Shown here: positions 3,593 to 16,477 of the stretch, in pieces
Layout: every line of letters starts with the position of its first letter
Numbering within the stretch: the stretch's first letter is position 1
Notes under the pieces: generated by a model
What the model was told of the DNA's origin: nothing
The model's input: only the letters and a program-made list of their open reading frames with translations
Databases searched by the model: none
IMG/VR virus record: IMGVR_UViG_3300006922_000190
Coordinates: 1-23,498 of that record
From: a virus
Length of the DNA stretch: 23,498 nt
Strand: one strand, 5' to 3'
Position numbers and translations under genes: made by a program

Positions 3593-4045
3593 ATGAAATT
3601 AGAATACTTTAAAGATATTGTTGAGAAACATACAGAATTAAAATTAAAAAATCCTACTAGAAAATTTGAGTATATTTTTGCCAGAGCGTGTTATTATTAT
3701 TTATGTAGAAAATATACTAAATGTAGTTTTCAGCAAATAAGCAAAACATTAAATAAAAACCATGCTACTGTAATACATAGCTTAAAAGAATTACCCTATA
3801 TTTTAAAGCATCATAAACATCTACAAACAATGTTTAATCAAATATTAAAAGAGGCCGACAAAGATTATATTTTTGAATCTACAAAAATGAGCATTGATGA
3901 TTTAGTAAAAGAGTATAATTTTTTATTGTTAAAAAATGGTGAGTTACAAAATAAGTTAGTAAATCAAGATAAAAAACTAAAATTAGTAAGGTCTGAAAAT
4001 AAAGAAATGAAACGAATTATTTACATCATGGCTGATACTGACTAA
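3593..4045 (+). CDS. DnaA domain IV-like DNA-binding protein with coiled-coil tail
   Basis: Residues about 22-67 match the C-terminal DNA-binding domain of DnaA: ARACYYYLCRKYTKCSFQQI followed by NHATVIHSLK at 56-65, corresponding to the DnaA signature (R/N)-D-H-(A/S)-T-V-x-H. No AAA+ ATPase domain is present; the whole protein is 150 residues. Residues about 95-142 are lysine- and glutamate-rich heptads likely to form a coiled coil, so it may dimerise. It could bind DnaA-box-like sites in phage or host DNA, either to recruit or to compete with host DnaA. It follows the exonuclease by 1 nt. Confidence 0.75.
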   Translation: MKLEYFKDIVEKHTELKLKNPTRKFEYIFARACYYYLCRKYTKCSFQQISKTLNKNHATVIHSLKELPYILKHHKHLQTMFNQILKEADKDYIFESTKMSIDDLVKEYNFLLLKNGELQNKLVNQDKKLKLVRSENKEMKRIIYIMADTD

Positions 4046-14342: not shown

Positions 14343-15539
14343 ATGGATGAAAATGTAAAAAACCAGCTTGACCAATTAGGCGATATTATCGATGCTAAAT
14401 TGGAAAAAGCTCATGGACAAGCAGTTGATTCAGCAACTGGTAAGGCGGATGAAGCATTAAAAGGCGAAATCAAAAACCTAACACAAAAATTTACTGAGAG
14501 AATGGATGCTATTGAAGTATCTAATAAAAAAAGATTTGAAGCCTCACAAAAAGAGGATAAATCTTTTGGTGGCAATTTAACAAAAGCTATCAAAGAGGGT
14601 GCATTGGATTCAATGCGAAATGGCTCAAATAGAGGTGCCTCGTTTGATATAAAGGCGGACATGACTGTTGCGGCTGACTTTACTGGAGCGGTGATACCAC
14701 CACAAAGAATACCAGGGTATAAATTTGACCCTACAACTCCACAAAACATAAGACAATTAATCCCAATTGGTTCAACTAATAGCGATGTTGTTAAATATGT
14801 AAAAGAAAGTGGATATGTAAATGGTGGTGCGGCAAAAGCTGAGGGTGCTACATTAGGGCAATCAGATTTTAATATGACTGCTGTTGATGCTAATGTTAGA
14901 AAAATTGGAACATATCTAAGGATTTCAGATGAAATGCTACACGATACTCCGCAAATTTCTAGCTATTTATCAGCTAGGGTACCAGCTAAATTAATGGAAG
15001 TTGAGGATGACCAAATTTTAGGCGGTAATGGTTCAGCTCCAAATTTAAATGGTTTTTATAACTCTGGAACTAACTTTGATGTTTCCGCTAGTGGTAAATT
15101 CTACGAATCTGTAACTGCGGCTAATGAATTTGATGTACTTGTTGCGGCTATTAATCAATTAGAAATTAATAATTACAAAGCAGATTATATTCTATTAAAC
15201 CCAACTGATTTTCACAAAATCCTATTATTAAAAGATACTACTAATAACTATCTTAAGGACCAAGTGTATCAAGGGTTACAACCTAATTTCTTAGGTGTGC
15301 CAATCGCTGTAAATAACGAAGTTAACCCAGGAACATTCCTAGTGGGTAACTTTGGTCAAGCGGCTCAATTATGGGTTAGAGACAACGTATCTGTTGAATT
15401 CTTTACAGAGGATGGAACTAACGTAAGGGATGGTTTTGTTACTGTTAGAGTAATGGAAAGAGTTGCACTTGCAACATACTTGCCAAAAGCTATTATTGAT
15501 GGTACATTTAGTACTGCAAAAGCGGCTATAACTCCATAA
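14343..15539 (+). CDS. HK97-fold major capsid protein
   Basis: This 398-residue protein has an N-terminal coiled-coil scaffold (delta) domain (about 1-100, heptads such as IDAKLEKAHGQAVDSATGK), then the HK97 core from about DFTGAVIPPQRIPG. IRQLIPIGSTNSDVVKY, the E-loop region, LRISDEMLHDTPQISSYLSA, QILGGNGSAPNLNGF and FVTVRVMERVALATYLPKA match phage capsid family patterns. The delta domain is probably removed by the protease upstream. The gene ends just before a strong terminator. Confidence 0.93.
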   Translation: MDENVKNQLDQLGDIIDAKLEKAHGQAVDSATGKADEALKGEIKNLTQKFTERMDAIEVSNKKRFEASQKEDKSFGGNLTKAIKEGALDSMRNGSNRGASFDIKADMTVAADFTGAVIPPQRIPGYKFDPTTPQNIRQLIPIGSTNSDVVKYVKESGYVNGGAAKAEGATLGQSDFNMTAVDANVRKIGTYLRISDEMLHDTPQISSYLSARVPAKLMEVEDDQILGGNGSAPNLNGFYNSGTNFDVSASGKFYESVTAANEFDVLVAAINQLEINNYKADYILLNPTDFHKILLLKDTTNNYLKDQVYQGLQPNFLGVPIAVNNEVNPGTFLVGNFGQAAQLWVRDNVSVEFFTEDGTNVRDGFVTVRVMERVALATYLPKAIIDGTFSTAKAAITP

Positions 15540-15563
15540 TAATAACTATTATTATAGTAAAAG

Positions 15564-15588
15564 AGGGGTATTTATTACCCCTTTTTTT
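15564..15588 (+). terminator. rho-independent terminator after the capsid gene
   Basis: AGGGGTA pairs with TACCCCT (15564-15570 with 15576-15582) around TTTAT, followed by seven Ts. It isolates the head operon from the RNA gene downstream. Confidence 0.88.
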
Positions 15589-15610
15589 ATGGGGTAAACT
15601 GAAATAATAA

Positions 15611-15628
15611 TAAAATAAATGCAAAATA
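15611..15628 (+). repeat. promoter-upstream repeat, copy A
   Basis: TAAAATAAATGCAAAATA is repeated exactly at 15934-15951, 323 bp downstream, and both copies stand the same distance before a TATATTTG box. It looks like part of a duplicated promoter module. Confidence 0.7.
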
Positions 15629-15630
15629 AA

Positions 15631-15661
15631 TTTTGTAATTAAAAAAAAACTTTTATATTTG
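15631..15661 (+). promoter_or_regulatory. Bacteroidetes-type promoter for the noncoding RNA
   Basis: TTTTG (15631-15635) and TATATTTG (15654-15661) are 18 nt apart, matching the -33 TTTG / -7 TAnnTTTG consensus. Transcription would begin near 15668, with no start codon or gene following for about 350 nt. Confidence 0.7.
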
Positions 15662-15795
15662 TCATGTAATTAGTTAATAATTATTACGTTCATTAAAAAG
15701 GTGGTTAGTACAAGTTAGGGGTGAATGCCCTACAAAGGCGGTGCAAGTCCGCCCACCTTTTCAAATTAAGTTCATTGAAATAAAAAAAACTGAAA

Positions 15796-15852
15796 GCATT
15801 GATAAATGTATATTGGTAGAGTACACGAAATAACTGCCTACATTGAGAATGT
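15796..15852 (+). other. RNA hairpin repeat, copy 1
   Basis: Nested helices: GCATT/AATGT, internal loop GATA versus GAG, AATGTA/TACATT, a TATT bulge, GGTAG/CTGCC, and loop AGTACACGAAATAA (15820-15833). Six Ts follow directly, so it could also pause or end transcription. Confidence 0.7.
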
Positions 15853-15866
15853 TTTTTAAAAAGTAT

Positions 15867-15904
15867 GATAGTGTATTGGTTGAGTATATGAAATAACAAC
15901 CCAC
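15867..15904 (+). other. RNA hairpin repeat, copy 2
   Basis: Same plan as copy 1: GATA, a short GTG/CAC helix, TATT bulge, GGTTG/CAACC, loop AGTATATGAAATAA (15883-15896). Compared with copy 1 the apical stem changes A-T to T-A and T-G to T-A, keeping the pairing. The outer helix of copy 1 is not kept. Confidence 0.65.
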
Positions 15905-15933
15905 CAGTAAAAAATTTAAAATAGGTTTTTTTT

Positions 15934-15951
15934 TAAAATAAATGCAAAATA
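15934..15951 (+). repeat. promoter-upstream repeat, copy B
   Basis: Exact second copy of the 18-nt sequence at 15611-15628, again just upstream of a TTTG/TATATTTG promoter. Confidence 0.7.
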
Positions 15952-15953
15952 TA

Positions 15954-15984
15954 TTTGGTATTTAAAAATATTCTTTTATATTTG
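15954..15984 (+). promoter_or_regulatory. Bacteroidetes-type promoter for the 46-aa gene
   Basis: TTTG (15954-15957) and TATATTTG (15977-15984) are 19 nt apart, the best consensus match in the window. The upstream TTTG is itself part of a TATATTTG (15950-15957). The next start codon is at 16022. Confidence 0.7.
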
Positions 15985-16021
15985 GTGTATAATTAAAAAC
16001 AAAACAATAAAAATTATTATT

Positions 16022-16162
16022 ATGAAAGAATTAGAAAAGCAAATTAAAACATTAAGTAACGAAATTAGAAACTCAGAAAAAGTTTATCCTGATTTTAGAT
16101 TATTAGATTTACAAAGATTAATAGACAAGAGAGATAAATTATTTAATGAATTAGAAAAATAA
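16022..16162 (+). CDS. coiled-coil micro-protein (46 aa)
   Basis: A 46-residue protein begins MKELEKQIKTLSNEIRN and ends LIDKRDKLFNELEK, two amphipathic helices joined by VYPDF, likely an antiparallel helical hairpin or dimer. It has its own promoter (15954-15984) and a terminator 11 nt after its stop, making a single-gene unit. That promoter is a copy of the one before the noncoding RNA, so the two may be co-regulated. No family is recognised. Confidence 0.65.
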   Translation: MKELEKQIKTLSNEIRNSEKVYPDFRLLDLQRLIDKRDKLFNELEK

Positions 16163-16207: not shown

Positions 16208-16477
16208 ATGAAAATAAATTTAAAAAAAGTAAATTCAAAAAAAGCATTAGAGGCACAAGGTTATTGTACAATCCAATTTAATTTACCATACTGGGGTTTT
16301 TTCGATGATACAGATAATCCGCCTAAATATGCATTAATAGTTAACAATAAAAAAGGTGTATGTTTTGAAAATGGTGGTGATTATGGTTTATTGTCAACGC
16401 CTTGTTGGTCAATTAAAGAGGCATTAAATATTTACAATAATGGCATTTTTAAATTTGAGGATAAGGTAATCACTTAA
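16208..16477 (+). CDS. hypothetical protein (89 aa)
   Basis: An 89-residue protein with beta character and many aromatics: GYCTIQFNLPYWGFFDDTDN, YALIVNNKKGVCFENGG, and a closing WSIKEALNIYNNGIFKF. It starts 12 nt after a terminator. No known family is recognised. The compact, aromatic-rich sequence resembles small phage accessory or host-takeover proteins, but nothing specific can be claimed. Confidence 0.6.
   Translation: MKINLKKVNSKKALEAQGYCTIQFNLPYWGFFDDTDNPPKYALIVNNKKGVCFENGGDYGLLSTPCWSIKEALNIYNNGIFKFEDKVIT

Follow-up and report, generated by a model that had tools for sequence, protein, structure and literature searches.

The window (the whole 23,498-nucleotide stretch analysed here) belongs to a marine flavobacterial phage and carries a gene for an HK97-type major capsid protein (MCP), whose stop at 15539 is separated from the next open reading frame (ORF), at 16022, by a gap of 482 nt (15540-16021). 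The first-pass annotation had singled out this long gap as one that no protein frame explains, and it holds no sense-strand ORF of at least 40 aa. First in the gap comes a terminator, then a promoter of Bacteroidota type, a hairpin and GTTCATTAAAA; a three-way junction rich in GC is next, followed by GTTCATTGAAATA, a 3' part of 140 nt that has a hairpin in two copies with the loop AGTAYAYGAAATAA, a run of nine T and a second promoter. To judge from the sequence, positions 15654-15934 are a structured non-coding RNA cassette that was previously uncatalogued. The features are as follows.

14343-15539 (+): HK97-type MCP gene; PHROG phrog_10 major head protein, E=2.4e-56
15564-15588 (+): terminator hairpin AGGGGTATTTATTACCCCT (15564-15582) and T run closing the MCP gene, read from the sequence and kept in most MCP relatives
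15632-15661 (+): Bacteroidota-type promoter, TTTG (15632-15635), 18 nt, TATATTTG (15654-15661), read from the sequence; the same element precedes the cargo in most relatives
15664-15687 (+): leader hairpin GTAATTA..ATTAC in a boxB-like position, from the fold; in the other RNA cassettes this place is taken by a hairpin with another sequence
15688-15698 (+): putative boxA 1, GTTCATTAAAA, 34 nt from the start of the promoter element TATATTTG (34-35 in L057, L149 and L232)
15697-15760 (+): three-way junction without a D stem, of tRNA-like dimensions, from sequence and fold
15770-15782 (+): putative boxA 2, GTTCATTGAAATA, identical over its 13 nt to the start of the boxA in a 16S rRNA leader of Maribacter
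15795-15853 (+): helix P1 enclosing hairpin 1 (stem GGTAG/CTGCC, loop AGTACACGAAATAA, 15820-15833), from fold and comparison
15854-15921 (+): helix P3 (15854-15859 with 15916-15921) enclosing the internal loop AGUAUGA/AGUAARAAA and hairpin 2, from comparison
15871-15904 (+): hairpin 2 (stem GGTTG/CAACC, loop AGTATATGAAATAA, 15883-15896), a direct repeat of hairpin 1 with compensatory stem changes
15921-15934 (+): conserved 3' end AUAGGU then nine T, with a weak, A/U-only terminator-like fold, from alignment and fold
15934-15995 (+): second promoter-repeat copy (direct repeat D1, 84% identity), predicted to drive the next cargo ORFs (16022-16162 and 16208-16477)

The terminator upstream of the RNA, a promoter of its own in the form seen here, and a nine-T end (15926-15934) followed by a second promoter, with TATATTTG again at 15977-15984, had all been described in the first-pass annotation and are found as described. 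The two promoter regions lie in the copies of a 62-nt direct repeat (15611-15672 and 15934-15995) that are 84% identical, and as they flank the cassette they may provide a route for recombination. The claim for a promoter is based on the Bacteroidota consensus and on conservation in relatives, and not on a simple sigma-70 scan, which is at chance level in this AT-rich sequence (94 found against 101 expected). Transcription would be expected to start at about 15666-15669, and as the copy in the window lacks a strong terminator of its own, read-through into the downstream ORFs is possible.

Structure of the RNA

The ordered helices with conserved loops that were reported on first reading are borne out by covariation across relatives, not by the folding of a single sequence. 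Free-energy folding (ViennaRNA) gives the window RNA a z of -0.49 against dinucleotide shuffles, with 65 of 200 shuffles as good, and the homologues a z of about 0; these energies are ordinary and therefore the case is built on comparison. RNAalifold without guidance predicts P3 alone, a helix in which 5 of the 6 pairs change on both sides, and P3 is 100% paired across 7 distinct sequences. For the 3' core as a whole, tested in a structure drawn partly by eye and on about five truly independent lineages, paired cells amount to 97.6% compared with 79.4% in shuffles, covariation is 0.486 compared with 0.201 (0 of 500 shuffles) and double-change cells number 16 compared with 5.9, a signal that collapses when the structure is slid by one column (1 nt). 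The twin hairpins taken as one family of 7 sequences, 6 of which come from the window, its near-copy L068 or L132, show 100% pairing, a covariation of 0.679 compared with 0.278, and both-sided changes at 5 of 8 pairs around a nearly constant 14-nt loop; P1 is present in four sequences only and its support is weak. Comparative covariation thus demonstrates, at the level of sequence, a conserved RNA structure for the core.

A model from related contigs, which the first-pass annotation had suggested as a check, was built and is termed R1 (the Module A RNA family, defined here). It consists of P3, the internal loop AGUAUGA/AGUAARAAA, a variable P2 hairpin and the AUAGGU 3' end; the window has these features and scores 98 bits (E = 7e-16) against R1, being itself one of the sequences from which R1 was built. 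The sequence AUGAAAUAA, a two-codon AUG-AAA-UAA minigene, is found in most of the twin loops, namely hairpin 2 of the window, L132 and L126 and hairpin 1 of L132. It is not in all copies, with hairpin 1 of the window reading ACGAAAUAA (ACG) and L235 being without the stop.

Upstream of the core, the junction has a 7-bp acceptor-like arm (AAAGGTG/CACCTTT), a 5-bp stem with the 7-nt loop GUGAAUG, a 4-nt connector and a 5-bp stem with the T-loop UGCAAGU (15742-15748). The loop GUGAAUG, at 15721-15727, has GAA in the place of an anticodon. Despite arms of 7 bp, 5+7 and 5+7 the standard architecture of a tRNA is not present, as the D stem is absent, and ARAGORN and the Rfam tRNA and tmRNA models were negative on this domain (no tRNA family down to E = 10). 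The closest resemblance is to the Tymovirus tRNA-like structure (RF00233), which shares the T-loop UGCAA and gives a weak covariance match of 21 bits against a cut-off of 40, although the junction in the window is not 3'-terminal and has no CCA. The junction and the full window RNA are known only from near-identical contigs, and a pattern search of other sequences for a related domain gave four other matches, all without the stems. The possible tRNA mimicry of this 5' domain is therefore a lead, not a result.

The RNA had been said to belong to no described family, and the Rfam covariance-model search proposed alongside that claim agrees with it: neither the window nor more than 20 related loci have a match in Rfam 15 at gathering thresholds, and none is credible at relaxed E, the weak matches being chance except for the sub-threshold tymovirus resemblance. 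The structured non-coding RNAs GOLLD and ROOL are likewise borne by phages and are dispensable in reported cases (PMC12286853), and the variable 5' region of GOLLD, which is able to hold tRNAs, can be likened to that of the window RNA. They are however 600-900 nt in length compared with about 265 nt, and occur by tRNA islands and not in a cargo slot with a boxA leader. Assembly into multimeric RNA cages marks GOLLD and ROOL, and their covariance models do not match the window RNA at the gathering threshold. Searches of named phages with three RNA queries gave nothing credible, and a query with the window itself returned short, weak matches only. Model R1 and a pattern for a second RNA (type B, below) had no match in 397 Flavobacteriaceae genomes, which are a part of the family and include no positive-control genome; genome-wide pattern matches in bacterial genomes were not significant, and the two inspected lay within or beside protein-coding genes.

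Cargo slots and their occupants

Near-identical copies of the RNA are present in four of the 75 MCP-relative loci compared (L001, L004, L023 and L068, from IMG/VR, among the matches listed) and a truncated copy in L002; the pattern method found no MCP relatives in sequenced genomes. A search with the twin-loop motif added divergent copies in L132, L126, L134 and L093, and L235, L232 and L236 came from one with the conserved 3' end, which also matched L149, again among the matches listed. P3, the internal loop, a P2 hairpin and the 3' end are common to the homologues; hairpin 1 and the 5' junction differ from one to another or are missing. The core moves as a unit, since it occurs in at least three genomic contexts: the slot behind the MCP gene (L001, L004, L023, L068), a slot behind the terminase gene (L132, L126, L134, L149, L232) and an early region, behind a small nuclease-like gene (L235).

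The first reading had placed the RNA between capsid and connector genes, and a structured RNA does lie there; it is not a fixed feature of the position, as most MCP relatives carry one of many unrelated small ORFs instead. Taken over both slots, the 70 distinct proteins of the first ORFs group into 51 clusters, a few of them being the next structural gene or spurious ORFs, and PHROG and Pfam gave no informative match for any of the ten cargo proteins tested. Of the 80 loci in the terminase family, 50 have an empty slot, with a gap of 31-79 nt only, and most of the others hold a cassette, whether ORF or RNA, that has a promoter of its own and ends at a terminator common to them; terminases that are 97-99% identical yet differ in cargo. 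The contigs are fragments and absence is best judged on the long ones: the core is found nowhere else on 14 long contigs (26-50 kb) that lack it in the slot, nor in the complete isolates P12024L/S, relatives that have no RNA after the terminase. From this distribution the RNA is, at the level of sequence comparison, an accessory and optional cassette in a cargo slot.

Other RNAs occupy the same slots. Type B RNA (GGTGTGAAACAG..), of 310-340 nt, has the same leader as the window RNA but differs in size, in sequence and in its helices, which covary on their own account. It is carried by L140, L144, L147, L226, L175, L042, L057 and others, and in L126, L134, L149 and L232 one cassette consists of the core followed directly by type B. 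Coordinates are L126:7093-7428, L140:10578-10921, L149:4933-5241 and L042:4394-4702. Type B may be a second new RNA family, and like the other ORF-less cassettes it has no Rfam match. Two further ORF-less cassettes with boxA leaders, L159:4250-4650 (with which L163 was grouped) and L051:4320-4700, have no similarity to the others and are likely to be additional structured RNAs.

The leader and its boxA

Nearly all RNA cassettes open with a promoter, a hairpin and a boxA in that order, the distance from the start of TAnnTTTG to boxA being 31-36 nt in most. Neither this leader nor the tRNA-like 5' domain had been noticed on first reading, nor had the fact that proteins or other RNAs may take the place of the RNA. 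A strict boxA core, GTTC[ATC]T[TA][AG]A[ACT]A, occurs in 11 of the 15 RNA cassettes left after deduplication, compared with 0 of 55 ORF cassettes (Fisher p = 6e-10, a descriptive value, as the loci that suggested the motif also served to test it and as contigs that are related do not count as independent), and the 7 looser matches in ORF cassettes are every one GTTATTT. The four RNA cassettes without the strict core are those of L226 (GTTAATTGACATATTG), L175 (GTTCATTAACGTATTG), L034 and L067; the RNA of L034 is a second cassette that has a perfect boxA further on. L067, a fragment from an MCP relative, has a non-coding stretch at 3800-3934 after a promoter, with no boxA, and the contig ends inside it.

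Identification as boxA has support independent of the p-value, because the motif is found at rRNA sites of the host clade and matches a CRISPR boxA of Legionella Lens. In the rRNA operons of the four Flavobacteriaceae genomes examined the motif recurs, as GTTCATTGAAATATTG, GTTCATTGACATATTG or a near variant, either ahead of 16S or between 16S and 23S, the window copies matching only the first 11-13 nt of the 16-nt consensus. The order of promoter, hairpin and boxA is also that of rRNA boxB-boxA leaders, with the difference that the phage leader drives an RNA other than rRNA and that antitermination here is a prediction from sequence. At rRNA operons boxA is reported to be necessary and sufficient to recruit antitermination factors (PMC10250234), and its effect on long untranslated RNA is established in other systems (PMC10250234; PMC7862264). 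As in the cassettes, boxA precedes a long untranslated RNA in the leaders of CRISPR arrays, according to PMC7862264, which cites Stringer 2020. The Legionella Lens CRISPR boxA, GTTCTTTAAAA (PMC7862264), is identical to the leaders of L126 and L134 and differs by one base from boxA 1 of the window; unlike CRISPR arrays, the phage locus shows no CRISPR repeats or cas genes. No boxA was found in the examined gap with the long RNA of phage ICP1, therefore boxA does not look general to phage non-coding RNAs.

Possible functions

The account that we favour, and consider on balance to be probable, is of an optional, independently transcribed RNA that acts in trans and is made with rRNA-style antitermination. 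It builds on the cassette anatomy, conserved structure, accessory distribution and boxA association that sequence comparison has established, and further supposes that boxA would work here, that the RNA would act in trans and that its target would be in the host. The RNA gene would be accessory ('moron'-like), with host RNA polymerase starting at the Bacteroidota-type promoter of the phage; the hairpin and boxA of the leader would recruit the host NusB-S10 antitermination machinery that serves rRNA, and the untranslated transcript would thereby escape Rho and be transcribed to its end. Once released, the RNA of about 265 nt, made up of the tRNA-like junction and the covarying two-hairpin core with its repeated 14-nt loop, would then act in trans; its most likely mode of action would be to offer the repeated loop to a protein or an RNA of the infected host. 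Gain and loss of the cassette would probably come about through recombination of the promoter repeats on either side of it.

It could instead be that the element acts in cis for processive antitermination, as HK022 put or the Bacillus EAR RNA do, so that RNA polymerase reads through terminators into the late genes. A boxA, a hairpin and a structured RNA within a late gene cluster would suit such a role, as would the weak A/U terminator that alone precedes the next ORFs in the window, but the RNA cassettes of the terminase slot end at a strong terminator (ACCCTTRCAG..GGGGTTTTTTT) that also closes ORF cassettes, gene order is kept in the 50 of 80 relatives in which the slot is empty, and the core occurs in an early region as well, so that we regard a role in cis as unlikely. 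Given a similarly small chance is a nucleic-acid decoy, which would titrate Nus factors through its two boxA copies or, by way of the twin loops or the tRNA-like domain, an RNase or a defence protein. The near-constant repeated loop on variable stems and an accessory distribution, typical of host-directed genes, fit a decoy, yet the other RNA cassettes have a single boxA, there is no known defence partner and the tRNA-like part is limited to one near-identical group. A regulatory or a toxin-antitoxin role, both named on first reading, may apply as well.

That the region is a gene for a small peptide, or an AT-rich spacer that is translated or arose by chance, is very improbable: an antisense frame is open in the window and L132, but in six frames over both strands none is open in all family members, which mostly refutes a peptide, and compensatory changes track RNA pairing. 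Lambda bar RNA provides a precedent for a two-codon minigene such as that in the loops, against which stand the copies with ACG or no stop. Least credible is a packaging RNA similar to that of phi29, one of the options raised on first reading, since such an RNA is required by the packaging motor and hence is in all phages with that motor, whereas this one, although it adjoins MCP or terminase genes in most members, is absent from most slots, which hold unrelated ORFs or nothing, and from near-complete contigs of close relatives with the same terminase or MCP, and one member is in an early region. The observation made on first reading is confirmed as a whole, and its interpretation partly supported.

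In addition to the trans-acting account of the window RNA, we suggest more tentatively, as something that may or may not hold, that there is a class of exchangeable RNA cargo, in which marine Flavobacteriia phages swap small protein genes for several unrelated structured RNAs in promoter-flanked slots, a shared rRNA-style hairpin-boxA leader letting host RNA polymerase finish the untranslated gene. To our knowledge the accessory genes of phages have been studied almost exclusively as proteins. Here one hypervariable slot is filled by a structured RNA in some phages and by a gene for a small protein in others, the RNA cargo being marked by its promoter-hairpin-boxA signature, and a covarying RNA family is added that is absent from Rfam 15. 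The signature gives a sequence handle by which more RNA cargo may be found, and the leader offers a testable account of how an untranslated phage RNA would get past Rho in its host.
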